A stretch of 64,000 bases of DNA from Coriolopsis trogii. Taxonomy: Eukaryota; Basidiomycota; Agaricomycetes; Polyporales; Polyporaceae. Below the pieces are notes generated by a model, which was given only the letters and a program-made list of their open reading frames with translations, did not search any database and was not told the DNA's origin. Position 1 is the first letter of the stretch. The number at the start of each line of letters is the position of its first letter. Below, one piece after another: positions 26,733 through 59,766 of this stretch. Position numbers and translations under genes: made by a program. The stretch lies in NCBI GenBank assembly GCA_020543525.1, contig JAHYIO010000004.1, forward strand, positions 868,001 to 932,000, given 5' to 3'.

Positions 26733-26864
26733 CTAAGCAATGACGCAACCACTATGACTGCCATACGACCCCGTACGCTCGCTGTCGATCAAAATGGTTT
26801 CGTCCGCGCTCTCGGTGGATACGTCGTCGGGGACGGCAGGCGCGATGGTGAAGAACGCATCCAT
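26733..26864 (-). CDS. Pheromone precursor 6 (GSHSG-CVIA type)
   Basis: A 43-residue single-exon gene starting MDAFFTIAPAVPDDVS and ending DSERTGSYGSHSGCVIA, then TAG; too short for a 60-residue ORF cut-off. It belongs to a second precursor subfamily whose seven members end GSHS(G/S)CVIA. E-R, 11 residues before the Cys, is the classical maturation site in agaricomycete precursors, so the mature peptide is probably TGSYGSHSGC-farnesyl or slightly longer. It lies 6 kb outside the receptor core, divergent from precursor 7, with TATATAA 130 bases upstream. Confidence 0.87.
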   Translation of the reverse strand: MDAFFTIAPAVPDDVSTESADETILIDSERTGSYGSHSGCVIA

Positions 26865-26991
26865 CGCGTGTGATAGGTGAGTTTGTTTAGCTGATGTATG
26901 AGCTTATGGTGGTGCTAGTGGCGTGTTCGGGATGTCAGGGACAGACAAGATCGTAGGGTGGATGAGGTCACCCGCAGGTCCAAGACAAGAC

Positions 26992-26998
26992 TTATATA
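26992..26998 (-). promoter_or_regulatory. TATA box of pheromone precursor 6
   Basis: TATATAA on the minus strand, about 130 bases upstream of the ATG at 26864. Confidence 0.5.
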
Positions 26999-28708
26999 CC
27001 TCTACATGCCTCGGAACATACAGCTATGAGCTCAAACGCATGCACCTAGAGGAGCACCGGCACTGCCTCCCATCACAATACCACTCTCTCAGACTATAAG
27101 AAGAGATGTGTGGCTCCTTCCCGAGCTGGCCGCTCCCGACCCCCGGATCTGCTGCGCAATCCGTCCTGCAGGCATCCAGTCATCTTAGAACTGTGCATAC
27201 GAATATTAGCCTTAGGCGGCAAACAGCAGAAGATCCAGAGATGGTACAGGATATCGTCTCCTACCACATTTGGAACAGTCAAGCAGCCTCGAGGCATCAG
27301 GCGTGAGTTCAGAATAGTATGCTCTCATCTGGCCACGCAACGCAGTCCATATCAGCGCTGATGAATGGGTATGCTGCCTTCTCCAGAGACTCAATCTGCC
27401 CACAGTGCGTGCAATTGTGCAAGATCTGGGTGATGACTGCGGTTTTGCCCAGCCTCAGCCATCCCACATCTTGCCAATGTCCGATACATGGGCGATGCGC
27501 GAGGCCCCTCTATGCATCTGTTGCTTCAAGTTCTCAAACAGTTTAGCGGTGGTATGTCGATGTTGCATGTGAATTGAGTATAACTTACCGAGCCACAGTG
27601 TCTGCAAGATCCTTGACATGAGTCGGATTGCCACCCGAAAAGCCGGTCATGCCCTCTCTGTCACTCGGTGATTCGTACCGGCTTGACGAGGCTTCATATT
27701 TGCGCTGTACCTTTTATCCAGAGGTTGTGGTACAGTCAAATATAGCTCAGAGGTTTCCGCGGTGAGTACTTTACAATAAGAGGTCCTTGGCGCTAAGCTG
27801 CCATGCCCCGAGATGTCGGTACCATATATGGCAGGAGTAGTGTTCGCGCCTTCCACTCGAGCGCCCGTCTTTTGTCTTGCGGAGTCTCTTGACAGACCGG
27901 CATGGACGGCTCTCTCAGCACTCTCGCTAAGCGAGCCTTCCAAGTACATAACCTCAAGACCAGGAAGACTCTCGTACGAGATTCGATCGCCTGCGATATG
28001 GGTGAAAACTGATACGCGGCGGCCTCGTTGCGTATCTGCATTGAATCTGCAAATTGGGCGACCAGGAATGACACGTCGAGCCTCTTGGATTCTCCGTGAC
28101 CAGGAGTCGTGCTCGGATATGAGGTCCGTTACGCTCAAAGACAATAGTTCACGTCACTCGGCATCCCGCCTCTGCCGCGCGATGATAATAAGGTGGGACG
28201 GCAAGACGTGCTCGGGGCGCAGGGAGGGAAGGGTCGGAAGGCGAATCGTGCAGGTGCGTACCTTTGATATCTCAGGGCGCGGACGGATATGGCGACGGGC
28301 AATGCATGCGTGACGCATGGTGCGCTGAAGACAACCTTTTCCTCCCCGCTAGCACGGATCTTCCAGACAATGTAGCGCGTGTCTATGCAGCGTGCAGCTG
28401 CGCCGTCGGGATGCGCACGGCCCCTACGCGCACACACAATTGCCTGGAATTAGGCAACTCTGCAGGCGACGAGCGCAGGCAACGCCTCCATCTACACGTT
28501 GTTCGCGCGCAGAAGGTGACGGGGCCTGAACGTGACTTCCGAGACTGTCGAGACTCGGGCGCTGCGGGAAGAGGATACTGTCCAGGGAAACGGGCGGCCC
28601 ACGGCTATTGTCCCGCGTCGTCATCGTGTGTGCCTGTGCACCCGTGCACCCGTGCACATTGACAGCTCACGCCGAAGCGGACAATTCGGTTGCCAGCGTC
28701 GACAGACG
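26999..28708. other. Spacer between divergent precursors 6 and 7
   Basis: A minus-strand frame at 27647-28140 reads protein-like for about 165 residues (VTDLISEHDSWSRRI...) but has no ATG and an equally long frame overlaps it on the plus strand (27813-28313). I recognise no domain and call neither. Confidence 0.3.
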
Positions 28709-28714
28709 TATAAG
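28709..28714 (+). promoter_or_regulatory. TATA-like box of pheromone precursor 7
   Basis: TATAAG, about 135 bases upstream of the ATG at 28845. Confidence 0.45.
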
Positions 28715-28844
28715 AAGACGGGTCCGCGCACTGGGGGAGAGGGCAGCGAACTCACCGTCCAGACACTACTGAAGCACTTGAGCCGCAGAGCTCAAAGAAT
28801 CCACTCCGCTTCTTCGCATTCGCCGAGACAACCCGCACTCTGCA

Positions 28845-28970
28845 ATGGACGCTTTCTTCACTATCGCTTCTCCCGTCCCCGCTGAGGACCCCGCGTCGAG
28901 CACGGAGATCTTCGTGGACGAGGAGAGGCTCAACACTGCTGGCTCGCACAGCGGCTGTGTCATTGCCTGA
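28845..28970 (+). CDS. Pheromone precursor 7 (GSHSG-CVIA type)
   Basis: A 41-residue single-exon gene starting MDAFFTIASPVPAEDPAS and ending NTAGSHSGCVIA, then TGA. The EER stretch about 10 residues before the Cys is the likely maturation site. The N-terminus is almost identical to that of precursor 9 (MDAFFTIASPVP). A 57-nt intron-like sequence (GTAAGT at 29018, TTTATAG at 29074) lies just after the stop, so the 3' UTR is probably spliced. Divergent from precursor 6. The cognate receptor is not known. Confidence 0.88.
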   Translation: MDAFFTIASPVPAEDPASSTEIFVDEERLNTAGSHSGCVIA

Positions 28971-30083
28971 AGGTTCGGGCTTGGCGAACTACCACAACAA
29001 CAAGTAGCGCTATCGGGGTAAGTGACAACGCTCTTGACTCGGAGTAAGAGTACCGACTGATATCCTCTTTATAGCGCGACCACTACTGTATCAATACTAC
29101 TCTCACCTCAACCTACCGCGACCTTCCCATAATCGCGCAACCTCCATCCTCTCGTCCGCGACATCCACATACATCTCGAGCATTATCATCCCTATCATCC
29201 GCAACCGTCTCCGCTTTCTGACCACCTTCGAATCCTGCGCGCCGCGCACCTTCGTTCACCGCACGGCCCCTCTTCACGACTGCCCGCGTTTGCTCCGCAC
29301 AAACGGGGAACGCACCATCTTACCACGCTCCTTCTTCGCGCCCCGTTCCCAATCCATGAATGCCTCCAGGCTTTTTCGATTCACGACATGCAGCATATAC
29401 ACACACGCTACCCTTCACGCCTCTTGTCGATGTTTCTCATGTGCTATGCTCTAACACGTCTTCCAACGTCCAACGTTCCAACATCCGCGTTCACGTTCCA
29501 TAACGTGCTTGTAACTTATCCACTTCCCTTTCCCCCCCATCCTCTTCCCCGCGTCGCCCCCGCCCCCATTCCCGTCCGCGCTTCACGGGCACCTTCACGC
29601 CTCTCTTCGCTACGCCTCCATCGTGCAATACGCACACATTGCTATCCCTGGTCTTTCTGTGTATCAACCCGAGCTCGTTTTGTTGTATACGTACTGTTCG
29701 TTACGTTTTGGACTCCCTCTGCTTCCCCCTTCTTTCTGTAGAACGGTCCTGCGCTATCTGGGTAGAGAAGGGCTTTTGTATCGTTATCGAGTGTAGGCTA
29801 CTTACTTCCGAATCGCGATTATGTTCGGAAATCGACATATCTCGAGATTAACTGACTTGGACTCTGAGCTTTTGTTATGCACCATATGGTCTACAGATTT
29901 GTACCGGCAGCTGGCTGTTGAATAGATGTCGTTCACCGGTAGCTGCGTGCTCTCACTTGTAAGCAGATGCTCAATCTCATGTGTGTATGCTTCAATGAAT
30001 ATCGAGCAGTCTCGTTATGATACAATAACGTCCGTCATGCGGGGTGCTATGGATACATGTATGGTACAATAGGCACGGAGCAT
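28971..30083. other. Pheromone 7 3' region, no gene
   Basis: C/T-rich, low-complexity DNA with the probable 3' UTR intron of precursor 7 at 29018-29074. No coding sequence seen. Confidence 0.45.
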
Positions 30084-30549
30084 CTACGGGTTGTTCACGC
30101 TCTGCTGCCACTGACCCTTATCGCGGCGAACGTTCCCTGCACACCGGCCAACGCATCAGTCCAGACTGCGTCCCACCACACTCATAGTGAGCGAGCTGGG
30201 GCGAGATAGGTACGCACCAGTAGCCTCCTGCTCGCGATCGCCCGTGACAGCGCCAACGACGGCGTCCTTGCGGCCGCCCACGCGGTCCTTGGTGCCCTGG
30301 ACGTACCCCTTGGCCTGCGCGGCGTTGTACTCGGCCTCGCCCACGTTGTGCTCCTGCTTGCCGGACTGCGCCCAGTTCTGGCTGCCGGTCAGGTTTCCGA
30401 GGCCCTCGACGGCGGCGCCCTTAGCCGAGTGGAACCGGCCTGTGTTCTTACTGTGGGTCGAAGAGTGGTCAGAGCGCTGTTCGTAGATGTGATGGAGGAA
30501 GGTGGGTGGTAGAGACGTACTTGGGGCCCTGCTCGTTGTTGAAAGACAT
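30084..30549 (-). CDS. CsbD/Hmp1-like stress protein
   Basis: Minus-strand exons 30549-30521, 30450-30218 and 30136-30084 give 104 residues. After MSFNNEQGP come NTGRFHSAKGAAVEGLGNLTG, GKQEHNVGEAEYNAAQAKGY and KDAVVGAVTGDREQEATGN, then a C-terminal KGQWQQSVNNP. The repeated charged, Gly/Ala-rich AKG...GxxGxxTG pattern is that of the CsbD-like family. In basidiomycetes, relatives are annotated as mismatched-base-pair and cruciform-DNA recognition protein (Hmp1, first known from Ustilago). The protein is small, hydrophilic and predicted helical, probably stress-induced. Unrelated to mating; a passenger in the locus. Confidence 0.8.
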
Positions 30550-31218
30550 GATGGTGGTGTGTGGGTGTGTGTGGTTGATTAGTTGGGTGTAGGTGGTTGT
30601 TGAGATCGTTCGGGTGTGGTTTGGATTGGTGAATTGGTGTGCAGTTGCTCTTATACCCTGTAGCAAGTTCAATGACGTCGATGCTTGACAGAGCACGCCA
30701 ACGTTGTGTTGGAACTGAGTTGGTGCAACTTGGAGTACTTCCCCACTGGGGCTATAGGCGTTGTGGCGCAGGAGCGTCAGTGGCAAAGAGAAATATCAGA
30801 TGCGTACCGTCTGGACTACACTGCGTTGCCATCCTACCGCAATCAAGTGCTCACGATGTGCTGAACGTGACAGGCACTCAGACTGATGCAGGACCACACC
30901 CAGGTCCCAGGCGCATTGAGGCAAGCCCGAGATGGCCGCGAGTATCCAAGGCTCTGTACGCCGCACGTAGAGGTCAGAAATGACGTCATCGCCAAGCAGT
31001 ACGACTGCAGTGTCCGCGACGGTGCATATGCAAGAAAGCAAAGCGACATGGGGGTAAGTAAGATACAGCGAGTGTGCACAGATGTACGTTAGCTCGTAAC
31101 AAACAAAGCGTCCGGTCCCATAGGTGGTAGCGCATAAGAATCTGAGAGGCACAACGGCATCCTCGGCCAGCGTGACGAGAGCGTGCCGATACTGGGAGCA
31201 ACGATGCCATACTGTGAT
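30550..31218. other. Intergenic region, no gene seen
   Basis: Promoter of the CsbD-like gene and 3' end of the membrane-protein gene. Only shadow frames. Confidence 0.4.
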
Positions 31219-32291
31219 TCAGTGCGAATTTTCCTGCCGGAGATGCTCGTCGTTGTCGTGCCCATGCGAGTCGGTAGAGGCAGGCGCATTCCCATCTTGC
31301 AGCGTCGTGCTGCTCGGCAACTCCATCCTCGTCACCAGCGGGCTCGTGTCGCTCGTTCCCCCCGCCCCATTGGGCGACCTCGCTCCCGTTCTCGACTCGG
31401 GTTGAGCTGTTCCCGTTTCCGTCCCCGTCACTGTCCCCGTCACTGCTCCTGCCCCGCTCGGGCGCCCGTGCTGGACGTCCTGGTATCTGGGAAGCATGTC
31501 CTTGTCGTCGTATTCGGGCAGGAACTCTTCTGGATCATCGGGGTGCGCGATCGTCCCCCGCCGGCCGCCAGTGTCGATGTCACCTGCGCGGGTGCGGCGC
31601 CCACCGCGCCGGCGGCGGTCGGTGTGAAGGAGTGGTACGGGCGCAAGAAGAGGGTCGAAGACGATAGCTCCCTGCGATCCCGACACAGAAGGGAGCCCCG
31701 TGGTACGGGGGACCGCGCGGGGACGTGGAGGCACGGAAGGTGTGGGGTGAGCTCGGAAGAAGTGACGGACGGGATGATGATTACGCCGGAGTCGTATAAC
31801 CCTGGATCGAGTGAGCACTCATGCTGAGGTCGCATATGTGGACGTACACGCACCTCCATAGGAAGATGGCGAGGAAGAGAGCGACGGCAGTAACGATGAG
31901 AGCGCCTTCTACAGCGGTCTGTTTACGATTTGGAGGCCGAACCGCGTCAGCGCGATGCAGATCACTCTGTGGGCGGACGTAGACGCACCTTTACGAGCCG
32001 TTCATGCTCATTACTGCCCTCCGAGGGCCTGCGTGATGGACTTGGGAAGAATGGTTTGTCGATGGTGCTGGACGCACTCGCGGTCGTGGACTCTGGCAAC
32101 ACTACGCTTGTCGAGCTCGTGTCTCCCGTTCCAGTCAGGGAGATGGTGGGGTTTGCAGAAGATGTAGGCCCGGCACCGGTGTTTGTCGTCCGCTGGACGG
32201 ACGTCGAGGCTGATGGCGATACGGGCGATGTAGGGTCCGAGACCTGCCTTGCGGCGTAAGGTGGCGCAAGCCGAGGCTGAGCAACAGGCAT
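31219..32291 (-). CDS. Single-pass membrane protein with Ser/Thr-rich N-terminal domain
   Basis: Minus-strand exons 32291-31989, 31918-31854 and 31801-31219 give 316 residues. An N-terminal Ser/Thr/Pro-rich stretch of about 100 residues (TSPVSPSASTSVQRTTN...) is followed by one strong helix (AVEGALIVTAVALFLAIFLW, residues about 103-122), a basic stop-transfer segment (RVIRLRRNHH), and a cytoplasmic tail with PEEFLPEYDDKDMLPRY and many Gly/Thr repeats. There is no clear signal peptide, so topology is inferred from the positive-inside rule. It resembles mucin-like single-TM proteins; I do not recognise a named family. It lies between the CsbD-like gene and uS19m. Confidence 0.7.
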
Positions 32292-32577
32292 CCCGATGAA
32301 GTTAGTTGATGCGCGTAGAGAGGATTAGCGAGATATCGACGCTGGAGGCATGAAGGACGAAGGCTGGCACGTCGTGCAGGACGACGAGCGGCGGAGTTGA
32401 AGAGGCCAAGGCACGGTCTGCGCACGCTTGGGCAGCTGCTGCTCTCAGCCCCGCACTTCTCGAGAATCCTTGGCGGTCGTCCGCAGTGTGTCACAGTGAC
32501 CTCATCCTGGTCACACAGTCACACGTCCCCAGAAGGAAGGCCGGAGAGGAACAGACGCCCATAGCTTGTTTTCGACG

Positions 32578-33030
32578 ATGTGGCCAACGGCGGTCGTCCA
32601 GGGCGGGCGGTCAGCGTGTAAGGGTGCGTTCTCTTCCTCCCAGGTTGCTCTCGACCCGTCTAAGCATGATGTTCATAGGGCCGTTCTTTGTAACTTTCCC
32701 CAATCTCAAACACGCTCTCGAGAACAACATTGCCATCAGGACTCAGGCCCGGTCTTGCACCATCCTCCCGAACTTCATAGGGTGCGTTCTCGACGTAGTG
32801 CGCATACTGCACGAGTCCGTACCAACGCGGCCATATATACTGCAGGATCCGGTTCTTGGTCCATAACGGAAAAGACTATGTCCCGGTGACGGTGACGCAG
32901 GACATGGTCGGGCACAAGCTGGGGGAGTTTGCTATCACGCGGAAGCGGTTCACATACAAGTGCGTCACAGCCATCTCCCGCCCATGTCATTCCGCTAACG
33001 GCGTCTTACAGGCAAACGAAGAACAAATAG
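32578..33030 (+). CDS. RSM19: Mitochondrial small-subunit ribosomal protein uS19m
   Basis: Exons 32578-32623, 32679-32781, 32846-32959 and 33012-33030 give 93 residues, the usual length for mitochondrial uS19. Order of motifs: SACKGPFF (usually SAWKGPFF), [50 protein letters not shown] and the terminal KQTKNK. It binds 16S-like rRNA in the head of the mitochondrial small subunit. The last exon is only 19 nt including the stop. Start ATG at 32578 gives [13 protein letters not shown], suitable as a short mitochondrial presequence. None of these exons stands out as a long ORF, so the gene is easily missed. The Trp-to-Cys change is unusual if the splice site is right. Confidence 0.88.
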
Positions 33031-33562
33031 ATTCTTACACTATCTTACCACGTATACGCTACTACTATCGCTGTTGTCCTACTCCCGCTATCATCGCTCG
33101 AGCCCTGCAATCTCACCGAGCGAATCTCCATCTGTGACAAGCCCCGGCGCCGTGACTTGCCTTACGGTTGCCCACTTCACACTAAGAATGCATCCGTCCG
33201 CGAAGAGATGAGGAGGCAGGGTACGGTCTGCCGATTCCCCCGAGTTCCGCAGGGTTATGACACACGACATGTGAGTGCGGGCTTGCGCAGCCTGTCTCGC
33301 GTGCGGTCTCCTGTCCGCGATGAGAATGGGTGCATTGAGTTCGGGCCAGGCGTAAAGTGAGTTTGTTCTCTGACTGTATGCAATCTCGCGGGAGCTATCT
33401 TCTCTTGGCCGGTTGCATTTCCACTCCACCTCGAATACATCAATGTCGCTATCGAATCGCTCGCTCGCCGTTACAGCCATCAACCAGGACTAGACAATCA
33501 CGAACACTGTCATGCGTCATTAAGCTGTAAGTGCTACTGTCACATCATACACGTTACGGCTT
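33031..33562. other. Convergent 3' region, no gene
   Basis: Between uS19m and the F-box gene C. No supported coding sequence. Confidence 0.45.
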
Positions 33563-35304
33563 TCAATGTCCTTTCAATGTGCTCAGATGAATGAAGACCG
33601 TATGCCACCCCACGGACTCCTTATAGGCGGGATCAGAGTATTCATCAACCGGGGGATCCAGTGCAGGAAACAGCCGGTGGATGTAACACGCCAACGCGCG
33701 CATCTCATCCGCATCTGCCTTCTTCAGACCCATCTTCTCGTTCCAGTCGTTGTCTCCCCACGGACTAGGTCCCGAGACAATCTCCAAACAGGACAGGGGA
33801 TGGGTCGAAGGCCCCTCGCCCTCCGGAACCGGAAGGTCCTTGACGAGCACCGTTCTGGGATCCAAAAAGGGCAGAATGAGGGTCTCCAGATTCGGACAGT
33901 GCCGCCAGAAGGCGTGGAGGACCGCAGGCGAGGGCAGCTCGCTCTCCTCCGCGTCCGCGTCCTCCTCGTCGAACCAGCTGAAGCCCATCGCGCTCATGTC
34001 GAACCGCTCGAGCTCGGGCCACCCGCTTGCGATCTGCTCAAAGTCGTCGAGCGCGAGCGCCCACTCGAGAAGCTCCGCGCAGAGCGAGAAGGAGCGCACG
34101 TGGTGGAGATCGAGGAGCGGGCCGAGGACCTCGGCGAGGGAGAGGAGCTCGTCCGCCGGGGCGTACTCGCGCCGCACGAGGTAGAGGGCGAGGGAGAGCG
34201 GCCGGTTTGGGGGCAGCATGTGGGCGACGGCCTCGGAGAAGGCGATGAAGTCCGGTTCGACGACTCGGTCGGCGTCCAGCAGGTCGATAGAGAGCGTGTC
34301 CAGGATCGGCGCATGGAGTCGGTCGAGTGCTTGCGTGATCGAGGAGCATGCGCCCTCGATGTGTACGGTACGCAAGCGGTGTGCGGATACGGGAGGAGGA
34401 ATGAAAGGCGGAAGATGGTACCCCAACACGGTGCCGATGCATAGGCGTTCTAGGCAAGGCAAGGCGAACAGCCGCCTGAAGGACGCGGGGGGCATGCAGT
34501 AGGAGGTGGTGACTTCTCGGAGGTGGGTGAAGGAACTCAGGAGATCGAGACTTCCAGGTCTGCAGGGACATGGCGGGCTATGTAAGTTTGCATCATTCCT
34601 CCCGCCATGAGTGGAGATGTTGATTTCCTGGATGTTTCGCGCCGATTCCGGCAGACCATTCAACCAATGCCACATGGGCGATGTCGGCAGCCTAGCGTAA
34701 TGCGTGTATTCAAAGTGGACAATACGTAGGAATGGGGTATCACATAGAGAGGACAGGAGGTTGACGGAATGGAGTGTCGGAGACCAGTGAAGGAGTCGTA
34801 GTTGAGGGAATATCGTGCGACCGCCGTTTTGCACGAGAGCGAAGCGCAACAGATCGTCGTTCTTCCAGTCGCAACCCAAGTGACCGAACACCATCGACAA
34901 TTCCCAGACGTGCGAGCAATAGTCCAGGAATCGCGTCCAAGTCGCTTCATCCCTGCGTTGTTGGGCATGGCTGACCTATGACTCGGAGTAAACATCGCAC
35001 CGCGCATATATGCGGAGATGTATCTTACCGAACTCAAGTGCGCCTCAAGTACGGCGTGATTGGTCACCGGTAGAAGCGTAGGCAGATCATACTCTGCCAG
35101 CACATTCCACAACACAAGAGAGGATGGTATTACCCTCCATAGGATCCTCGTAGCGGGCACCTCAAATTGACGGCTCACTAGAGCACTGTTTCGTAAGTCG
35201 AGACGCGTAAACGAGTGGCCCTCGTCAAAGATTACGAGGAGTAAGTCGATGTTTGAGAGTACTCGGTGCACTGCCGATTGGCCAGTACTATGTTGAAGCG
35301 ACAT
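33563..35304 (-). CDS. F-box protein C
   Basis: Minus-strand exons 35304-35029 and 34975-33563 give 562 residues. The N-terminus has an F-box-like region (VHRVLSNIDLLLVIF ... LVSRQFEVPATRILWRVI), followed by a helical linker and a long Leu-rich region (LPQLRLLHW, PFLRIVHFEY, LPCLERLCIGTVLGY, CPNLETLILPFLDP). The same layout, with the intron at the same place, occurs in F-box protein D at 43.4 kb (LLIIFSDN..., FPSLRSLNW..., CPDLLKLTLPHLD). Probably an SCF ubiquitin-ligase adaptor, target unknown. A basidiomycete-expanded family. C and D share few residues, so they are old paralogues. Confidence 0.8.
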
Positions 35305-35550
35305 CGCTCTCTAATAGCTACATGCACGCCATTGTGTCAGCAATCTTCCGATGAGAGGCAAGGTTCACTCACTCACAAGGTATCGCCTCAAGAAGGGCAC
35401 AATGTGATGAGGATGCACCAAAGTGTTATAATAGTCCATGGGCTCCTCATGTCCTTTTATGAGCGACAGGAGCCAGGTGAGAGGCCGGTCCGAAGAAAAT
35501 ATAATCGCTGTATAGCTACCGATACAAAGCATGCCACAATGACTGTGAGC

Positions 35551-36454
35551 CTACGCAAGCAAATCGTCAAGGAAGTCTTGCATATCTTCTTTCTCACTCT
35601 TTGGTGGTATGGGTGCATCGAGTGGTAGTGGCGGGGCTTCAACAAAGGACCGCTCTGCATGAAATTGTCAGTCAGCCTTGTTGCATCCCGTCGTCTCAGG
35701 AGGCTCACCTTGATGCCTACCACGACCTGCGGTGCCAGTGGCACCTCGGATTGCGGCACGACCGCGCTGTTTGGCGGTCTGTGCTCTGAAACGGCTTTTC
35801 AGGTCTATGAAAGCGTTGAAGGGGCATGTTGCGCGTGATCATTCGACCACTTACCCCGAGTGGCTTCAGCTGCCGCCTTCTCGCGGCTCATCTCTTCCAG
35901 TTCGGCGTCCCATTCGATCTGTTGTACGCGCCCTTTCTTTGACTTCAGTTCTGGGTTTGCCTCGTTGCCGATGTGCGCGAGGCTATGATCGACGTCATCG
36001 TCATCGTCTCGTGGCGGAGGAGCAGACGATGGCCCTGGCGACAGTCGCTGTCGCTCCAAGAATGCGGACAAGTCAACCTCGGGCTCGACCACTTCTTCGC
36101 CTTTGCATCCATTGTCGCGGCATAAGCGCAAAGCTCTGATACGCTTACATTGTCTCGTACACGTGGCTACGTACCTTCAGAGTCGAGTTCTGGCTCTGGC
36201 TCGACATACCGGTCCGCATTCGTGCCCAACTGCCTACGAGCGTACTTCTGCTCAAACTCTTTCTGCTCTTCCTCGTCCAGCTCAGCTTGTTCCTCGTCTT
36301 CTAACACCAACCGTCTGCCCCATTCTGCCGGGCGACCCCGACCCCGCCCACGTCCTCGCGCTCGGAGGTACTTGCCTAGTCCCCCGCGCGACTTGCCTCT
36401 ACCTCTTCCTCTCGTGGTTGGGCCGGTCCCAGCAGAATTTTGCGTTTCAGACAT
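35551..36454 (-). CDS. Conserved disordered protein, function unknown
   Basis: Minus-strand exons 36454-36175, 36100-35855, 35804-35709 and 35654-35551 give 241 residues from MSETQNSAG. An RG-rich N-terminus (GRGRGKSRGG, GRGRGRGRPAEWG), an acidic helical stretch (LVLEDEEQAELDEEEQKEFE), EVDLSAFLERQ, QQIEWDAELEEMSREKAAAE, and a C-terminus QDFLDDLLA. The ordered spacing of these motifs looks like a conserved eukaryotic protein rather than random DNA, but I do not recognise it. The RG segments suggest RNA binding. It is divergent from CNOT11 over 182 bp and they may share a promoter. An earlier in-frame Met lies at 36463. Confidence 0.75.
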
Positions 36455-36636
36455 AGTAAACAATCAGAGAAAGGACAAGGTCGCGGTGTGAGATGTGGAA
36501 ACAAGGATTGCAGACCTATCGGAGCGCTGACTATCGGTGAATGCCTACGAGCGCTTAGCGTCCACCCAGGTTTGCCTTATATCCTCACGATCACCGTCTG
36601 CGACGACGACAACGACATCGTTCACGACCTGGAGCC
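36455..36636. promoter_or_regulatory. Bidirectional promoter
   Basis: The 182 bp between the divergent start codons of the disordered protein and CNOT11 must hold both promoters. No motif is recognised. Confidence 0.4.
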
Positions 36637-39119: not shown

Positions 39120-42054
<2,935 letters not shown>

Positions 42055-43383
42055 GGTGCGTGGGCGGCGGTTCCGACTGCGAGATCAGATGAAGGATGGG
42101 GGTGAATGGCAGAGGGGAAGATGCGGACAGGCTACAGCACGAAGGAGGGAAACGCGAGTTGGCTGCTAAGAGTCTGACTCCGGATAAGAGATGCGCGCGT
42201 CGGGCGAGCGATGAGACGTCGGATGGCGAGCGTACTGTACAGAGACGGCGGAGAGGGTCGTCAGGGTCGTGCGTCGTCGGCCTTCGTCGTCTCTGCCTCG
42301 TCGTCGTCGGGGGCGTCGAGGAGAGCGGAGAGGAAGGGAGATGGTGCTGGCTTTGTTTGAGCTTGCAGTGGCCGTGCAAATGTTCCCAGCCGGATCCGGA
42401 TTGGTTGACCAATCCCCCTCGGATCTAGCCGACGACCACCTATTGTCACGGCAACCAATCATCGCTCTCTCTCTCTCCTTTCCTCCTCTTCAGCCCAACA
42501 TCTCCTACTGCATTGCGGAACAGAACTCTTTACAAGCTACATCGAGCATGTCACACAATATGAGGAGACAACGTCGCGGAAATACGAGCTCTTGAGCATG
42601 CTCGATCCCGTAACGATTCTGCAACCACTAGCCGGCGAGCAAGAAGGTTGATGGATCATCACTTTCCGGTGCGGAAGACATGCAGGAACAAGATGCGCAT
42701 CGAAAGGGGCAGTCCTGTTATACCATTGGTAGTACCAGTACTACTGATCATAACGGCTGCTATAGCCAGCAGACTTCAGAGTCGGCACGATCACCAACTG
42801 GTCCCCTATGACTTATAATTTAATGCTCTTTCACCGCATGTTGTTGCCGCGGCCCTCATCTCATTAGACAGCTTAACACTAGCGCAACATTGCCAACAGT
42901 CGTGCCCGCACGCTCTCCCAGACGTGAGCTCTCTCTTAAAGGTGGAACAGAAGAATATGGCTCCGGACTTGAGTTGATCGTGAAGATGTGCTTGTATTCT
43001 AGGCTCTACTGTATCTTCCGGAAGATATGTTTAAACAATAGTCGTATCTACCCAAGCGCCTGCCATATGCACATATATCAAGGGGACGTGCGCAATTATC
43101 TCCTGTCCACGTCCTCCGTTCACTTTCCTTTAGGTCCATACGAATTCGCGGGTGTTCCGCACCTGGCAGGTAGACAATCTCTCTTCTCTAGCTATTTGAG
43201 AAGATGGCTCATGCGGACACTTTGCTCCGGCGTGACAATTTTAGGTTGTAGAAGCAGCACTGTGTACGCTCATCCATCTTGTCACAATCAGAGTCCTTTG
43301 GGCGTACACTGCGATCGTAGCTGTAAGCATATTGGAGCTCCCGCGGTCATTGTCACGCAAGATTGATGTGTTGTTCATCCTAG
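42055..43383. other. Intergenic region, no gene seen
   Basis: CLA4 upstream region and promoter of F-box D. No supported ORF. Confidence 0.45.
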
Positions 43384-45048: not shown

Positions 45049-45221
45049 TAATCTACGAAGCCTGGACAATTGATATTCGAACGCGTCACCATGATGGCTG
45101 TCGTACGTATCATTGTTATACTTGCCACAGATGATAGCCAGCGCATGGGAAAAGGCCGAAATGGATGTAATGGTACGAGCTTGATCTACACAAGTTCAAA
45201 TTGCGATGTATACTGCTACAC

Positions 45222-47402: not shown

Positions 47403-47516
47403 TTAGGCGATCACGCATCCGCTGTGGCTCCCACCGGTGCCGGGGTCGTCGCGGTCCACGAGGACCTCCTCAGGCTGGTCAATAGGGAGAGGATCTGCAA
47501 TAAGGAATGTATCCAT
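47403..47516 (-). CDS. Pheromone precursor 8 (GSHSG-CVIA type)
   Basis: A 37-residue single-exon gene: MDTFLIADPLPIDQPEE ... VDRDDPGTGGSHSGCVIA, then TAA. The open frame extends further upstream, but MDTF matches precursor 11 and the other MDxF starts. It lacks the E-R pair; a VDRDD stretch occupies the processing area, as in precursor 12. GATATAAG is about 115 bases upstream. The only member of the second subfamily not in a divergent pair. Confidence 0.86.
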   Translation of the reverse strand: MDTFLIADPLPIDQPEEVLVDRDDPGTGGSHSGCVIA

Positions 47517-47628
47517 AGTGATGTTAGGAATTGAGAAGGGTGAAGGGGTGGTTTGCGGTGATGATGAAGGGGTGGTGTGGGGCGAGTCCGAGCGACAACG
47601 CTGGAGACTGTGGTGTTGTCGTGAGCTA

Positions 47629-47636
47629 CTTATATC
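47629..47636 (-). promoter_or_regulatory. TATA-like box of pheromone precursor 8
   Basis: GATATAAG on the minus strand, about 115 bases upstream of the ATG at 47516. Confidence 0.45.
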
Positions 47637-47657
47637 GCCGTTGCCTGCACCTCCCAT

Positions 47658-49074: not shown

Positions 49075-49197
49075 TCATGCGATTACGCAGCCGCTGTGGC
49101 TTCCGGAGGAGCCGGTCTGCTCGGTGTCGACGAGGATATCCTCGACGGTGGGCTCGTCAACGGGGACGGGCGAAGCGATGGTGAAGAACGCGTCCAT
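49075..49197 (-). CDS. Pheromone precursor 9 (GSHSG-CVIA type)
   Basis: A 40-residue single-exon gene starting MDAFFTIASPVPVDEPTV and ending DTEQTGSSGSHSGCVIA, then TGA. Too short for a 60-residue ORF cut-off. Shares MDAFFTIASPVP with precursor 7 and TEQTGSSGSHSGC resembles precursor 11 (QEKVGSSGSHSGC). Divergent from precursor 10 over 3.3 kb. ATAAATA lies about 138 bases upstream. Confidence 0.87.
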   Translation of the reverse strand: MDAFFTIASPVPVDEPTVEDILVDTEQTGSSGSHSGCVIA

Positions 49198-49331
49198 TGC
49201 GGAGTGTATGGTAGTGATGACGGCGCTGCGCGAAGAGCGAAGAGCAGAGAGCTGTCAAGCACGGGGACTTGTCTTGTCAGGAGCGCAGAGGAGTCGTAGG
49301 ACGTCGTCGTCCTCCTGCAAGGGTCTTCGTG

Positions 49332-49338
49332 TATTTAT
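49332..49338 (-). promoter_or_regulatory. TATA-like box of pheromone precursor 9
   Basis: ATAAATA on the minus strand, about 138 bases upstream of the ATG at 49197. Confidence 0.42.
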
Positions 49339-52300: not shown

Positions 52301-52323
52301 CCAATCCTTGCTTGGACTATAAG
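52301..52323 (+). promoter_or_regulatory. CCAAT and TATA-like boxes of pheromone precursor 10
   Basis: CCAAT at 52301 and TATAAG at 52318, about 140-165 bases upstream of the ATG at 52464. Confidence 0.45.
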
Positions 52324-52463
52324 AGCACTCCCCCTGGAGAATGAACGATCCTCAGCGGTCTTCGATCTTCGTCTTCTCGCTACCCACCTCACCCCTGCCC
52401 CTCTCCCATCACACCCGAAACCTCCTCCCCCTTTCCACTACACCCGTACGACTACTCACCGCA

Positions 52464-52592
52464 ATGGACGCCTTCACGATCACCCCCGCCGTCCCCGAGC
52501 CCCTCCCCGTCGATGCGCCTTCGGAGCCCACGCTCGTCGACAACGATGGCTATGGCACCGGCGGCTCGCACAGCGGCTGCGTCATTGCCTAA
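52464..52592 (+). CDS. Pheromone precursor 10 (GSHSG-CVIA type)
   Basis: A 42-residue gene starting MDAFTITPAVPEPLPVDA and ending NDGYGTGGSHSGCVIA, then TAA. The open frame extends upstream to 52341; MDAF is chosen by comparison with the other precursors and the distance to the TATA-like box. No E-R pair; NDGYG occupies the processing area. A GTACGC donor-like site follows the stop within about 40 bases. Divergent from precursor 9. Confidence 0.87.
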   Translation: MDAFTITPAVPEPLPVDAPSEPTLVDNDGYGTGGSHSGCVIA

Positions 52593-53223
52593 ACCCCCCG
52601 TTTTTCTTCGCCTAACGTTCTTCACGACCAAGGTACGCCCTTCTTCCCCTGCCGTCTCTCGAGTTCGAGTAGATCGCTCACCCAGGGCAGATGACAATCG
52701 TCATACACGCGCAGAGCATCCACTTTGCGCGCACACGTACCCCAACGTGTTGCGGCACGACGACCAATGACCCCACCCCCCACCCGGCCCTTCGGTTTTC
52801 GAATTCGACTTTCTCATTGCCCCAGAGCTTCAGCTCTGTAGACCTTGTTCCCTGGTTCGACACAGATGTGTTTTTGACGAGAGGCGCCATGGACTTTTGT
52901 CGATTGTATCAATAGCTTGTATCTTCGTTCGCCGAATGCCTCTCTTGTCGTTTGTATACGTACCTGTACCAACCAGTGTTTCATCCTTCTTCCCCTTTCC
53001 CCCACAACGGACAGACTTGTAGAAGTATATGATCAGCGTGACATGTATTATACAGCTGGGTCAAAGTACATCGTAAAGCTATACGGGAATCGTTCATCTA
53101 TGACGAAACAAGACAGTGATAAACAATTGCTGGCACTAGGTATACATTTTGATTCTTTGAAGTTTGCTTCTCCCGTCTTACACCTCCGTCCGTTGAGCAA
53201 CTTCTCCATATGCCGCATGGGGA

Positions 53224-56200
53224 TTACTTGCCCTCGGCGATCCGCCACAACGAAGGAACGACCTGGGCGGGCTCAAGCTTCCACTTCGCGTCCGTGCCCC
53301 TCCCGCTCGTCGAGCACGTCTCCGCGTTATCGAGCTCGTTCAGCCGCCGCATCAGCTTCTCGTCCTTCCCGATCGCGAGCACAAAGTCAAACTCGGTCGT
53401 GTTCTCCGTCTCCGTCGCCTCCGTCGACATCCACGCCGTGCGCGTGTTCAGCTGGCTCCGCGCCGGGCCGCCCGGGTGCAGGATCGCGCCCACCGCCGTC
53501 GAGCGCGAGATGTTGTTCGGGAGGACGAGGAAGGAGGTCGAGCCGGGGATGATGCGCAGCCCGTAGCGTTCCCCGATGCTGTCGAAGATGTGATTCTGGG
53601 CTTCGGCCGCTTGGCGGTGGGCCCATTGCCAGTCGGAGGCGTGCTCGTCGATCGCATTGTCTGTCCAGAAGCGCCAGACGACAGATGCCTCGCGCTCCTC
53701 GATAAACGACCCGGGAGTACGCTCGGTGAACTGTGGACGCAAGTGAGTACTGTGCCACTTGAGGCACCAGAATGAGCACGTACGTATTGGAGGATTTCCA
53801 TGCAGGCTGCCTTCCAGGTGAGGTTGAAGTTCGCGACCATGCTAATCCACGACGACTTGGCGTCACGATCTGAGCGTGACTTAATGAAGCAACCGTTCTC
53901 TGCACTATACAGGGTGTCAGAAAAAACCATGGCCCAGAGCAAGATGTGACTTACACAATGCCGATTGAAGGCACCCTCTCGGCAACGACATCGAGAATAC
54001 CCGTCGTGGGGAGGCCGCTGAGGAGCCAGACTTCGTTCTTCGGGTCCTCCGCCAGACGGTTCAAGAGACGCAGCGCCTCCTCCGGTGGTTCGAAGTCAGG
54101 TTTGCCCCCGAGACCCACGCCGGCGTTGCGCGCAATAGTGCGGAAGTCACGTTGCCATATGGTGCCCTCGAAGTCAACGAGAATCAAGCGCTTCTGAGAG
54201 TGGCGGTAGGACGGGAGGATCCGGCTGACGTCGAGAGTGGCGATCGATGTCGTGTCCGAGCTCTGCATATGCTCGATGTTCGAGCGCAGACAACGGACGA
54301 GGAACGAAGTTACGAACGCTTGTGCGCTCTGCGTAACAACGTGATTGTGGAGGTCCTGTCGCATGCGCTGTGAGCCACGGTTCGAGCCGGCAACAGTAAT
54401 CCTTACCTCCCAGCGAGAATGAGCCTCGTCGTCGCTCATGGTGAGCGCCTGATGGATAGCCTTCGCCGTCATACGCTTGTCCCAAGGATTGATGGGGATG
54501 CAGGAGCGGAAGCCACTGAAGCTGTACGATCCAGTGAATTCGCTCAAGATGAGGGGTCGGTGACGTTGCTCCTGGCACTCAACGAATTCGTGGGCACGAA
54601 GAGCCATACCCTCCCGAAGGCTCGTGACCATGAAAGCATCTGCGACGGTGAGGAGGGCAAGGTACTGGCTGAACGTCAAGTCCTGAGTGTGCAAGAAGAC
54701 CACGGGCTGGTAGGTCAGGGTCGAGAATCGAGAGTTCAGGTGCGATACGACATCCGCAACACCGCCCTGCGCCTCGTTCTCCTCTGTGGTTTGCAATGCA
54801 ACTTGGATAAGAACGACCTTGCCCTGATACTCGGGATACTTGTCTAGGAACGCCTCGAAAGCCTGAATCTTGTTACGGACACCCTGGATAACATCCAGCT
54901 TGTCGCGGCCGACTATAATCTTCATTCCAGCGTAGCGCTGCCTGAGCGACTTGACCCATTCGTGCACCTCGTTCTCTTGCCTGCATATATGCGTGATCAA
55001 CAGACGGCAGGTATAGGCATCAAACGAACTTACTTCTTCGCTGTGATGCTACCAACGTCAATGCCCATCGGGAAGACGCCGACGTCGATGGAACGGTCGT
55101 CGTGCTGGATACCCTTGGGTAGAGCTTCTGCTGCCAGAATCCGGCTGACTGTTTGCCTGAAGTGACGAGCATAGTTGGCCGTCTGGAAGCCAATGAGGTC
55201 GGCGCCGAGAACACCCTTCAACAGGTCTTCTCGGACGCTAAGGCAGCGGAAGATCTCCGACGAGGGGAACGCGACGTGCATGAAGAACCCGATGGAAGCT
55301 CCGGGAAGACGTTCGCGCAACATCGAAGGAAGGAGCATCAGGTGGTAGTCGTTCACCCAAATGATATCGCCCTCGTTGTATGCGGAGGCGATGGCATCAG
55401 CAAAGCGCTGGTTGACCGCGACGTACTGCTTGAACGAAGCGCTCTCGTAGAAGGACTTCGTCTTCGGTGCATCCGGCACGGCATAATGCAAACACGGCCA
55501 GAGGACCTGATGGCAGAACTCGTCATAGCAGCTGGCAAACTCCGAGTCTGGAATCCAGACGGGCAGGCTGTCGCGCTCCTCTCGTAAGCGCCATTCCATG
55601 TTACGCCGCAGGCTCTCGCGGAAACCGTCAGTGTTCGTTCCGAGCGTGCCGACCCAGAGCTTGCGTCTGAGTCTGTCCCCGACACTCTCGATAGCGTTCT
55701 TCAAGCCGCCATTGCACTGCAAAATGTCTCAGCACTTTGGCATATAAGGAGTTTCAGACGACAAATTCACATGAGGGTTACTCTCGAAGTGCCATTTGAT
55801 GCCGGAATGAACCGAAGGGTCCTGCCGGGAGGATGAGAGAGAACGAGACGCATTGCGATGAGCCGAGGAGCGAGAGGCGCGACGTTGCACGCGCGGGGCG
55901 CCGTGAGCCCCATGGTGAGTGGTCTGATAGTGACGCGCGCCATTCGCCGTCGGGCTGGGAGAACCGCTTGCTGCTGGAGACTTGGAGGCATTGAGTTTGT
56001 TCGCGAGAGCGTCGAGGAGGGACTCCGTAGGGGGTGCGAGCCTTGCAAAGGGGTTCGATGCCTCTGCGCGAGGAGTGACAGTGGGTGTCGGATGACGCGA
56101 CTAGGACACATGATCAGCATATATTCGTAAAGAGGAGAAGTTGGGCAGGCTTCCAAAGGCTGGTATGCGGGACGGGTCGAGCATGCGACACACACCTTGT

Positions 56201-56420
56201 CCTTGAGGTCTTCAACTATGCTCCTCAGGGGTCCAGTAGCTCTTGACAGAATTGGGGGACGTCCTGGTGTCCCGGCCTGCGAACCAAAGGCAGGTGTGGG
56301 GGCAAGCGAGTGGAGGGCAGACTCCTGGGTGGGCGAGGGAGGGGCGGACTCGCCGATGACGGTGGTGTTGGGGAGGAAGAGGGAGGCGATGATGACTCTG
56401 TGATGTCTGAGCGAGCTCAT
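53224..56420 (-). CDS. Trehalose-6-phosphate synthase complex regulatory subunit (Tps3/Tsl1-like)
   Basis: Minus-strand exons 56420-56196, 56100-55771, 55716-55034, 54980-54407, 54355-53955, 53904-53784 and 53730-53224 give 946 residues. N-terminus RVIIASLFLPNT, then a disordered region, then a GT20 domain (IIWVNDYHLMLLPSMLRERL, GFFMHVAFPSSEIFR, ADLIGFQTANYARHF, VTSLREGMALRAHEFV). The C-terminal HAD-type phosphatase domain has DFEGT (about residue 665) in place of DxDGT, and GKDEK (about residue 899) in place of GDD/GDxxTD. It therefore probably lacks trehalose-6-phosphatase activity and acts as the regulatory subunit of the trehalose synthase complex. Metabolic passenger in the locus. Confidence 0.82.
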
Positions 56421-57408
56421 CGTGGCCGACGTCGTGGTCGATGGACAAGCAGTAGTGCAGCGTGCGCGGGGCCCAAAAACCGAAGGCGATGGACTTTTGA
56501 GGAGACGATCTGCCTTCATCGGTGACGTCACGTGTAGCGCCGGCCCAGTGGCCCGGCCGCATCCGGAAGACTGAGTGCAGCACTCAGCGATGTGTTCCTG
56601 CAGCAGAAGGCCGAAGACGCGACCGACGTTCTGCCGTTCCACCAACGTTCGTCTCTCTTCGCACAACTCTCGCCCATCGATTGCCTCCTGTGGTCGATAT
56701 GGCCATGCAGATCGTCCCAGACGAAGCCTTTTCAGCGGTGATCACTCGATAGGCGTCTGCCTCGGTCTCGGTCCTCTCACTGGCAAGCGTCAAGCAAGCG
56801 TAATCATCAGGTAACTAACTCGGACTCAATACTCCATGTTGCGTTCGCGTATGGTATATAGGAAATGTGCGCTCGACTTGTAGTGGACAGCATGTTGCTC
56901 GCCATTCCATCTCGCGAGTTCGAAACAATCCACCCATCGCTGGTCCGACTGAAGGAATTCACGCACCCAAAGTCAATCTAGAGTTACAGGTCCACGAACG
57001 CGTCGATAGAGTCAAAAGCCTACGCTGAGTATGGATCTAGTGATCATCGTCCCAGAATACAGCGTCCAATCGGGTATCCGCTCATCGTCCAGCACACTAT
57101 CCACTATCAACATTCCTTCCAAACTTCTGTCCTATGATCTACGCAGTCACATATGTCAATCAAGCATTCCAGCCTTGCTTTCGAGACGGGAGTGGCTCAC
57201 CTCTTCTCAGTCCTTACGGTATCCCGAATCCTCGCATTCATACAATAATCGAAAATAATAAAGTTAAGCGGGCAACACCCGGAACGAAGGGAGGACGGTG
57301 CCGCCCAGACCGGTGGCATTCTACACTCTGCAGAACGCACGCACGTCAGTACACTGCACAGGACCAGGTGAACTCCGAGGACGTACCGAACAGCGCTGAA
57401 GGGGTCAT
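56421..57408. other. Intergenic region, no gene seen
   Basis: Tps promoter and 3' side of precursor 11; no supported coding sequence. Confidence 0.4.
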
Positions 57409-57528
57409 TCATGCGATAACACATCCGCTGTGCGAGCCACTACTGCCGACCTTTTCCTGGTCGGCAAACACGCTCTCGACGTCGTCGGTATCGTCAGGGA
57501 AGACGGGTGCAATGGTGAAGGTGTCCAT
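57409..57528 (-). CDS. Pheromone precursor 11 (GSHSG-CVIA type)
   Basis: A 39-residue single-exon gene starting MDTFTIAPVFPDDTDD and ending FADQEKVGSSGSHSGCVIA, then TGA. It is hidden inside a larger wrong-frame open frame and too short for a 60-residue cut-off. E-K occupies the processing area usually E-R. Divergent from precursor 12 over 2.1 kb. ATAAATAT is about 135 bases upstream. Confidence 0.87.
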   Translation of the reverse strand: MDTFTIAPVFPDDTDDVESVFADQEKVGSSGSHSGCVIA

Positions 57529-57660
57529 TTCTGCTCCGTAAAGCCAATGCTGGAAGGCAAGCTTGTGCTGGCAGAGCGGAAACCGGGTCTGCGAGCAAGC
57601 TCTGGAGGGCGCAAAGGAGGGCGAGGACTAGGACGAGGAATATCACTGCATCTCCCCGGG

Positions 57661-57668
57661 ATATTTAT
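57661..57668 (-). promoter_or_regulatory. TATA-like box of pheromone precursor 11
   Basis: ATAAATAT on the minus strand, about 135 bases upstream of the ATG at 57528. Confidence 0.45.
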
Positions 57669-59509
57669 GCGGATATCGAGACGTCGGGCCCATGCGACGG
57701 CGTTGACTGGCCTTGCGTCCGCGCTGTTGCAAACAATAGGATGAGAAGCTGAGAGCGCATTCTTGCAGATAGCACTCGCCGTTCCTGAGCGGGCCCCGTT
57801 AGGACAGGAATTCATCAAGCAGAGACAAGATGTAGGCCTGAGCGTGAGGCGTTGAGTAGCGGGTGCCTCGGCATCCGAAGCGATTGGGGATGTTGTGCGT
57901 GGGCGAGAGAAAGCTTGATGTCTTGTTAGATATCGCGCTCGGTACGTCATTATCATAAAGGTCGAGGTGTCGAAGCGGCCAGAGAATAGAGCTGGGCAGT
58001 CCATCAGAAACCCGCCGAGAGTCATCCCAGCACGGAAAGATACGCCCAGTTCGTAACATGCAGCGTACAACAGATATGTTGTATACATTCTGTTATAGAG
58101 AGCAAAGAAAGTCAGAAGAGATTTCGGACTGCAGCTGCCAGGACTCGGATATCAACGATACCTCCTCTTAAAATCAGACGGTGGTATCCAACTTGCTGAA
58201 TCAACGTTCCCCAATACCTCCGACCAGTTCTGTGCGCGCATGTGAACTACGCACTGTACATGTCATGGTAAACTTGAACATATACTTGAGACGAGACACG
58301 AGGCTGGCGGCTGTCCGTGCGGCTGTGGTCGCCACCTGGAGTCTACATGTTGCTTTCTTCAGAACCTGAGGGCAGGCTGAAAAGCCACGTGCCTGAAGGC
58401 GCCGCAACCGCGACTTTCCTGGTTTACTCTCAAATCTCCTCTGCAGATGTTCACGGACAACGTCAACGTTTGGCAGCCACTCGTAAGGTCTTGCTACGAA
58501 AACTGTTATCATGGCATAACAATTGTATGAGCTCTGTCATACGTTATATAACGCAGTCATACTGATCACCCTTGCCGGCCCGCAGTGGGCATGCAGGATC
58601 TTGCATCGACATCATTATGCCCACGCAGGCTGCTGAGCATTTTCTGCGTGCATTATCGCGCGTGTACAGCCCAATCGACGCTACGAAGAGAATTGAACCA
58701 GCTCTTATGGCATAGTCGCCGCTGTAGCCCTTCGTCCAGCCTCACCTCCTTTTGTTTCTGCGCATTCCATGCACGCACTCGCTCCACTAGCGTGTACACC
58801 GTTACCGCTCATGAAACGCCTTCGAACCGTCCCACCGAGGGAATCGAGGACTACTACGTCCGTATCCCCATTGGCTTCGACCGGCTTCCTGAGTTCCCGG
58901 TCCTGCCATACGCGGGTAAGCGCTCGACTTGACAATAAGAAGTGCGTCCCATGTTCATCACGCGTTGCGCCTCCGTCCGCGGTATCATCTCAAAAACTTC
59001 CTCAAACCGACGTTCAGGATAGGTTGGGTATTATGTGAGCTTGCGCGCGAGGGCAATTCGGTCAACCTCGAGCATGGTAGCGGGCGCGGAGGTGAACCGT
59101 GGCGGCTGGTTCCACAGGGCAAGCGAAACCCACTCAGGCTTAGGCCAATGTCGTGGTTCCTCGGTATTGTTTTTCTTTCATTTGGGACCACCACCGAAAG
59201 TTGATGTGAAGATAGCGCATGACCGTCCCGAGTTTGGCCTTCATCAGGGTTGAAGTTCGTTCGCTCCTTGCAGCTGCATGTCGTGAGTCAATGTTCTTCG
59301 ATCACTCGTGGAGAATGCCCTCCTCCTCCTTCCCGTCTACTAGCGCTCGCGTCTTATTGTCTTTCGCTCCTCCAGCCGCGCAGCGATGACGGTAGCCAGA
59401 TCCGGCTTTTGCGAATATCGGAAGCATCGCATCGCACACCCTGCACGCCTGCAGGATCCACTGACCACCTGTGCATTTCCGTCGGTGGAGCTGCGCGTGT
59501 CCAGAGGGC
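57669..59509. other. Spacer between divergent precursors 11 and 12
   Basis: Coding-like scraps on the plus strand (about 58825-58925, GIEDYYVRIPIGFDRL, then about 59015-59200) lack a start and do not join. I recognise no family. Confidence 0.35.
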
Positions 59510-59516
59510 ATATATA
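59510..59516 (+). promoter_or_regulatory. TATA box of pheromone precursor 12
   Basis: CATATATA, about 135 bases upstream of the ATG at 59647. Confidence 0.48.
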
Positions 59517-59646
59517 CCCAGACAGACAGGGCCCAGTCTGCCTTCAGCGAAAGTCTACTGTCTACCAGACTCCTCCGCCTCTCCGCACTGGAGCCATTCT
59601 GGGCCGTAGGCGACCTCGACGCTCCTCATTGTCACACATTTTCATC

Positions 59647-59766
59647 ATGGACGCGTTCTTCACCATCTCTTCTCCGCTCCCTGTCGACGAACCGGCGAGC
59701 GAGGTCTTCGTCGATCGTGACGATACGGGCACCAGCGGCAGCCACAGCAGCTGTGTTATCGCCTGA
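59647..59766 (+). CDS. Pheromone precursor 12 (GSHSS-CVIA type)
   Basis: A 39-residue precursor starting MDAFFTISSPLPVDEPAS and ending VDRDDTGTSGSHSSCVIA, then TGA. The open frame runs on upstream to 59386 but MDAF is the shared start. It is the one subfamily member with Ser instead of Gly before the Cys. The VDRDD stretch is shared with precursor 8. A 64-nt intron-like sequence (GTACGT at 59809, TTGCAG at 59872) follows the stop, as in precursors 4 and 7. Divergent from precursor 11. Confidence 0.87.
   Translation: MDAFFTISSPLPVDEPASEVFVDRDDTGTSGSHSSCVIA

Follow-up and report, generated by a model that had tools for sequence, protein, structure and literature searches.

A family of pheromone-like precursor genes with a near-invariant GSHSGCVIA end, probably not mating-type specific, beside and beyond the B receptor core of the polypore Coriolopsis trogii

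Pycnoporus cinnabarinus contains four similar precursors that have been called non-mating-type pheromone-like, beside three distinct B-mating-like ones (PMC4101180). The receptor cluster of Grifola frondosa reportedly has precursors at distances of 10.8 and 12.5 kb (PMC10607315), and for four Ganoderma genomes 10 precursors in 60-100 kb have been reported (PMC8869222). On the receptor side, the function of non-mating STE3 receptors has been called unknown (PMC8305134) or obscure, with Cryptococcus Cpr2 as the exception (PMC13308352). When brl3 and brl4 were overexpressed in Schizophyllum commune, self-avoidance resulted, and the authors interpreted it as a heightened detection of self signals (PMC8161036). 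Here, we describe eight pheromone-like genes of Coriolopsis trogii. Seven of them lie in the window, i.e. the stretch of 64,000 nucleotides (nt) that was analyzed (C4:868001-932000, with C4 standing for contig JAHYIO010000004.1), to the right of a core of STE3 receptors, and the eighth lies on another contig, C34. The family belongs to the known "non-mating-type pheromone-like" precursors of the Agaricomycetes: it comprises several copies with closely similar mature ends, and it is sited beyond the receptor core. These genes probably form a polypore family that encodes shared signals and not B-mating specificities. This view builds on the genes themselves, their near-invariant end, purifying selection on that end, old orthologous lines and the copy on another contig, all of which can be read from the DNA.

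The seven genes in the window, named below after their lower coordinate, are the following:

26733..26864, minus strand, start codon at 26864: precursor 6, 43 amino acids (aa), ...IDSERTGSYGSHSGCVIA; no predicted intron in the 3'-untranslated region (3'-UTR)
28845..28970, plus strand, start codon at 28845: precursor 7, 41 aa, ...VDEERLNTAGSHSGCVIA; predicted 3'-UTR intron of 57 nt, 47 nt past the stop
47403..47516, minus strand, start codon at 47516: precursor 8, 37 aa, ...VDRDDPGTGGSHSGCVIA; predicted 3'-UTR intron 40 nt past the stop
49075..49197, minus strand, start codon at 49197: precursor 9, 40 aa, ...VDTEQTGSSGSHSGCVIA; reciprocal best foreign partner P0001; predicted 3'-UTR intron 16 nt past the stop
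52464..52592, plus strand, start codon at 52464: precursor 10, 42 aa, ...VDNDGYGTGGSHSGCVIA; reciprocal best foreign partner P0010; predicted 3'-UTR intron under the looser rule only
57409..57528, minus strand, start codon at 57528: precursor 11, 39 aa, ...ADQEKVGSSGSHSGCVIA; reciprocal best foreign partner P0012; predicted 3'-UTR intron 22 nt past the stop
59647..59766, plus strand, start codon at 59647: precursor 12, 39 aa, ...VDRDDTGTSGSHSSCVIA; reciprocal best foreign partner P0003; predicted 3'-UTR intron 42 nt past the stop

A six-frame scan for CaaX ends covered 264 kb (C4:768001-1032000), namely the window and 100 kb on each side. The CaaX rule was passed by 16 open reading frames (ORFs). 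Of these, 12 are pheromone-like, comprising the seven genes listed above and five core precursors, and the remaining four represent other frames. All 12 fall inside the window, and no further precursor was detected within 100 kb of either of its edges. The string GSHxxC occurs nine times in the 264 kb, and seven of the occurrences are the precursors. The scan recovered all seven ORFs (37-43 aa) where the initial annotation had placed them, and the proposal of a second pheromone subfamily with GSHS[GS]CVIA ends proved to be right. The proteins start with MD[AT]F, and they end with GSHSGCVIA in six cases and with GSHSSCVIA in one. A genome search with the Pfam family PF08015 placed a single one of 13 precursors above the cut-off, the core precursor 3428; such a search scores the best candidates only. 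PF08015 is a weak and non-defining test, because the other four core precursors were missed too, and family-based annotation would therefore miss most of these genes.

A protein search of the genome (38.8 Mb in 39 contigs; a single assembly) with precursor 49075 recovered the seven copies and one additional gene:

C34:651920-652036, minus strand: eighth family member, MDAFTIASPVPIDEPGVEVFVDREDTGTSGDHSGCVIA, ending in GDHSGCVIA

No additional members turned up when the genome was searched with the C34 copy or a foreign relative as the query; these searches score the best candidates only, and the counts are lower bounds. The family had been thought to be confined to a 33-kb region outside the receptor core; its location outside of the core was confirmed, but the confinement does not hold. 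Contig C34 is 2.38 Mb long and the gene is located 652 kb from its start, and it is therefore far from the B mating-type locus (MAT-B) even if C34 and C4 are arms of one chromosome. The 40 kb around it contain a piece of a protein kinase (STE20/GCK-like by eye) and a piece with an RFX-BCD domain. A duplicated haplotype in the assembly was considered as a source of the C34 copy and is not supported: a 1095-base housekeeping probe had a single match and receptors were found on one contig only, and the copy matches the foreign proteins P0005 and P0007 better than any C4 copy. By the same probe and receptor results the genome looks haploid.

The last nine codons of the eight copies have a proportion of synonymous differences (pS) of 0.71 and of non-synonymous differences (pN) of 0.09, compared with a pS of 0.57 and a pN of 0.40 for the preceding nine codons. 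These values indicate that purifying selection holds the C-terminal block. The near-identity was not attributed to recent duplication or gene conversion, an explanation rejected because the copies differ widely at synonymous sites, encode serine by TCG in some cases and by AGC/AGT in others, and use all three stop codons between them. The CaaX end is CVIA in all eight copies, and a charged dipeptide (ER, EK or DR) that would leave 10 or 12 mature residues is present in six of them (26733, 28845, 47403, 57409, 59647 and the C34 copy).

A profile search of 5.8 billion proteins yielded 29 relatives at E<=1. The five named ones are all from Polyporales, i.e. Cubamyces sp. BRFM 1775, Trametes punicea, T. 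cubensis and Ganoderma boninense (two), and both G. boninense proteins are annotated as "pheromone precursor". Looking for such ends in other species, as had been recommended, led to relatives from Trametes, Cubamyces and Ganoderma. The mature end HSGC is present in 23 of the 29 relatives and the terminal HSGCVIA in 17, and the residue preceding HSGC is variable. Five of the eight copies (49075, 52464, 57409, 59647 and the C34 copy) have a foreign partner that outscores their own paralogues and is a reciprocal best match, with reciprocity judged against the eight own copies only; no such partner was found for 26733, 28845 and 47403. The precursor tree, from which P0018 (a gene model without CaaX) was omitted and in which P0009 and P0025 were trimmed to the inner MDAF start, is weak due to the short sequences (listed supports 0.62-0.98). 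Its clearest groups unite 52464 with P0010 (0.98) and the C34 copy, 59647 and 47403 with five foreign proteins (0.96). Because of the five reciprocal partners the copies are regarded as old paralogues, several of which have been kept separately. The idea that the genes encode redundant ligands is therefore borne out with respect to the shared ends, but not with respect to five of the eight copies, which represent separate old orthologous lines.

Introns in the 3'-UTR were predicted with a strict rule that requires a donor, a branch site and an acceptor and a start within 60 nt of the stop. It predicted an intron in six of the eight copies and in one of the five core precursors, in comparison to 3.1% of a background of 20,000 random places, which are not true 3'-UTRs (binomial 2.6e-8 for the eight). 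Under a looser rule, with a start within 80 nt, the numbers were seven of eight, four of five and 7.6%, respectively (1.1e-7 for the eight). In Agaricus, three of four pheromone-like genes are represented by expressed sequence tags, and all three have a 3'-UTR intron (PMC8305134). The predicted introns suggest that the precursor genes are transcribed and spliced. The word TTGTCT is present within 500 nt upstream, on either strand, of all eight precursors versus 24% of background windows; it was chosen after the fact and is marginal once about 2080 six-letter words are allowed for. Ustilago-type elements (ACAAAGGG) were found upstream of none of 13 genes.

A genome-wide search with PF02076 gave 18 exon matches, which were grouped into six STE3 receptors; this search, too, scores the best candidates only and gives a lower bound. 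All six are on C4, none of them further right than window position 20754. Four of them form the core together with the five core precursors, and two lie left of the window:

3428..3631, minus strand: core precursor, ends AAYCIIA; over the PF08015 cut-off
4897..5052, minus strand: core precursor, ends GHFLCTIA
5790..5948, minus strand: core precursor, ends GHFYCIIA
6452..7965, plus strand: core STE3 receptor W6, modelled with 398 aa and 6 exons
9002..10816, minus strand: core STE3 receptor W9, modelled with 515 aa and 6 exons
11808..12017, plus strand: core precursor, ends QAYCIIA
13481..15274, plus strand: core STE3 receptor W13, modelled with 509 aa and 6 exons
17480..17620, plus strand: core precursor, ends GIYCVIA
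18917..20754, minus strand: core STE3 receptor W19, modelled with 516 aa and 6 exons
C4:847828-849412: STE3 receptor R848, 454 aa, left of the window
C4:841013-842928: STE3 receptor R842, 599 aa, left of the window

The same search found no STE3 receptor among the seven precursors or on other contigs, including C34, and thus the absence of a receptor from their neighborhood, as initially claimed, was borne out; the seven are located 6.0 to 39.0 kb right of the last receptor. That the five core precursors end differently was confirmed as well.

The reading that we favor can be formulated as follows. Each gene would give rise to a precursor of 37-43 aa. In accordance with the processing of CaaX pheromones as described for Agaricus (PMC8305134), the cysteine of the CVIA box would be farnesylated, the last three residues would be lost, and carboxymethylation would follow. 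After cleavage at the charged dipeptide within a D-x-[ED]-x stretch, the cell would secrete a lipopeptide of about 10-12 residues ending with G[SD]HS[GS]C, e.g. TGSYGSHSGC or DDTGTSGSHSSC. The peptides are unlikely to signal mating type, because every haplotype is expected to have copies, given that they lie on two contigs. Specifically, the C34 copy should segregate away from MAT-B, and therefore it could not be part of a self/non-self code unless it activates no resident mating receptor. With less certainty, the role might be that of a shared self or growth signal. The putative receptor for it would be a conserved STE3 protein of the non-mating type, with R848 as the first and R842 as the second candidate, and the core receptors would be spared self-activation by not recognizing the HS[GS]C end. 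The initial annotation had asked how self-activation is avoided; the C34 copy sharpens this question and does not solve it. Among the three options that had been offered, non-mating pheromones are the best supported one, based on the near-invariant mature end, purifying selection, the C34 copy and the relatives found in the genera Trametes, Cubamyces and Ganoderma. Another of these options, that the ligands act on a receptor elsewhere, is plausible as well; "elsewhere" would then be on C4 itself, some 45-85 kb further left, as the genome search revealed no other STE3 gene.

The two left receptors are located 18.6-27.0 kb left of the window start. In the CaaX scan no precursor was present between C4:768001 and 871427, and the nearest one is 22 kb away from C4:849412. 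The receptor tree comprised the six own receptors and 45 chosen from 120 listed matches, which are the best 120 of 326 in a database clustered at 90% identity. In this tree R848 falls into a clade of 20 members (support 1.0) with one sequence per named species and a species-tree-like order, i.e. Lentinus/Cerioporus/Polyporus, then Trametes/Cubamyces, then Grifola, then Obba and Gelatoporia. The pattern of R842 is similar; 22 of its 29 relatives, which were searched for with a shorter model of 503 aa, are in the tree for R842. Among the matches listed, the nearest receptors to both are those of Cerioporus and Lentinus. The identity of the membrane region to relatives from ten species is 74-88% for R848 and 52-76% for R842. 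Among 149 fetched relatives (the 120 and the 29 of R842), 15 have at least 70% identity to R848 and four to R842. The best identity in this set is 65% for W6 and W9 and 49% for W19, and W13 has one relative with 84% (Cubamyces lactineus), followed by 60%. The values for the core receptors fit balanced mating alleles. Relatives of R848 and R842 are on contigs of identical length in nine of the 11 species that show both among the matches listed (Cerioporus squamosus, T. versicolor, T. polyzona, T. meyenii, T. gibbosa, T. cingulata, T. sanguinea, T. punicea and Cubamyces menziesii), and therefore the two seem to be linked as a pair; the exceptions, with contigs of differing length, are Lentinus brumalis and L. 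tigrinus (two strains). A search of solved structures with the receptors gave no match at E<=0.001. As a conserved ligand end and a conserved receptor occur in the same family, R848 is the best guess for the partner, followed by R842.

Several observations weigh against this reading. Precursors 49075 and 52464 have only EQ and DN, respectively, at the expected cleavage place, and no clear charged dipeptide. The pairing of precursors and left receptors is a best guess from shared conservation, and the fetched set, which apart from the 29 relatives of R842 was limited to the best 120 of 326 matches, may lack some closer relatives of the core receptors. The contigs of T. punicea differ in length, with 321,766 for the one that carries the HSGC-type P0016 and 1,303,428 for that of the relatives of both left receptors. 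A longer C-terminal tail has been named in a review as a criterion for non-mating receptors (PMC13308352); it is present in R842 with its 599 aa, but not in R848, which with 454 aa lies within the range of the core receptors (398-516 aa). The word TTGTCT is upstream of three of the four core receptors (W6, W9 and W19) and of two of the five core precursors, but not within 500 nt upstream of either left receptor, and therefore its distribution gives no support for the preferred pairing. Furthermore, the non-mating consensus of Agaricales ends with AYC, and it is nearer to two core precursors of C. trogii than to HSGC.

The alternative that the genes are true B-mating pheromones, inert on the resident receptors and active on those of other haplotypes, is unlikely. 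The precursors are physically linked to the receptor core, core and outlying genes are alike in the MDxF start, the CaaX end and the predicted 3' introns (core four of five with the looser rule, one of five with the strict rule), and TTGTCT is shared with three core receptors. In addition, the GNHGSC-type P0009 and the W6-clade receptor P0131 of Cubamyces sp. BRFM 1775 are on contigs of identical size and so probably on the same contig. However, eight near-identical ends in a haploid-looking genome, one of them on another contig, and their conservation across genera mean that the ends would carry no mating-type information. It is quite unlikely that the genes act without any STE3 receptor, or that their products serve redundantly on one core receptor no longer involved in mating. 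For the latter the candidate would be W19, a diverged paralogue of W9 (57% identity) without 14 aligned positions and 6.0 kb away from precursor 6, yet its best relative among the fetched receptors reaches only 49%, whereas the ligand family is conserved across genera. It is very improbable that the copies are leftover duplicates without present function, because, although they are scattered on both strands among unrelated genes and copy 26733 is devoid of a predicted 3' intron, pN is far below pS at the mature end, all eight frames are intact, 3' introns are predicted in six to seven of the eight, and orthologous lines have been kept across species.

With respect to the other features of the region, W19 is a sister of W9 (57% identity), and 14 aligned positions are missing at the place where the other core receptors hold DTHxxF; perhaps it is a degenerating or re-purposed copy. 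Among the neighbors of the seven precursors, the assignment as F-box genes was not confirmed, because none of seven such single ORFs had an F-box Pfam match at E<=0.01, and one of them had a weak match to leucine-rich repeats, below its cut-off. Two other neighbors were confirmed, namely a trehalose-phosphate synthase and the following gene, which sits between precursors:

39230-42084 of the window, minus strand: PAK-type kinase with PH, PBD and kinase domains

A PAK gene flanks MATB also in Trichaptum (PMC8970355). Right of the window, the same frame of 74 residues is present at C4:1012238 (plus strand) and C4:1014153 (minus strand), about 2 kb apart, like an inverted repeat or a transposon.

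Beyond the favored reading of a non-mating family, a more far-reaching picture is possible, though rather doubtful. The B region of polypores might harbor, next to a non-self mating code in the core, a second lipopeptide system for self-signalling (autocrine or kin-sensing). The latter would consist of the eight GSHSGC peptides together with a conserved, as yet orphan, STE3 receptor, and different paralogues would tune the signal by stage or tissue and keep one receptor-binding end.

Added here to the known kind are a genome-wide count, a copy on C34, signs that the end is under selection and that the paralogues are old, predicted 3' introns, and two candidate receptors. The non-mating receptors are mostly orphans, and this locus offers candidate ligands that share a conserved end, together with two receptors that may bind them and lie within about 85 kb. 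It also calls for caution, as a CaaX precursor near a B locus need not be a mating specificity; seven of the 12 precursors in this region probably are not.

A full-text literature search, with figures and supplements outside of it, gave no match to the string GSHSGC. With respect to P. cinnabarinus (Trametes), the likeness comprises the order Polyporales, CaaX precursors and the MDA/DF start; there are four genes there versus eight here, and the two sets are likened by description and not by the HSGC end. The peptides of Coprinopsis cinerea, Laccaria bicolor and Agaricus bisporus are similarly multi-copy, have similar G-rich mature ends and are not tied to mating type, and Agaricus resembles the family also in its 3'-UTR introns and in having copies that are not confined to a single chromosome (PMC8305134). 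In contrast, their consensus is GGGSGNGAYC or GGGSGNNAYC, while the ends are GSHSGC, GSHSSC and GDHSGC in C. trogii. As the consensus GGGSGN[GN]AYC stems from Agaricales, this mismatch sets a polypore branch apart and does not exclude membership in the kind. The B-mating pheromones, represented by the five core precursors, have in common with the family the CaaX end, the MDxF start, the small size and the predicted 3' introns (four of five with the looser rule), but their ends vary strongly among themselves and they are sited beside or between receptors. The Brl receptors of S. commune are STE3-like and flank the B locus without neighboring pheromone genes, as do R848 and R842, and their self-avoidance effect is a precedent for the receptor side only. 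The passages on these receptors name no ligand (PMC8161036), whereas in C. trogii a candidate ligand family is at hand.

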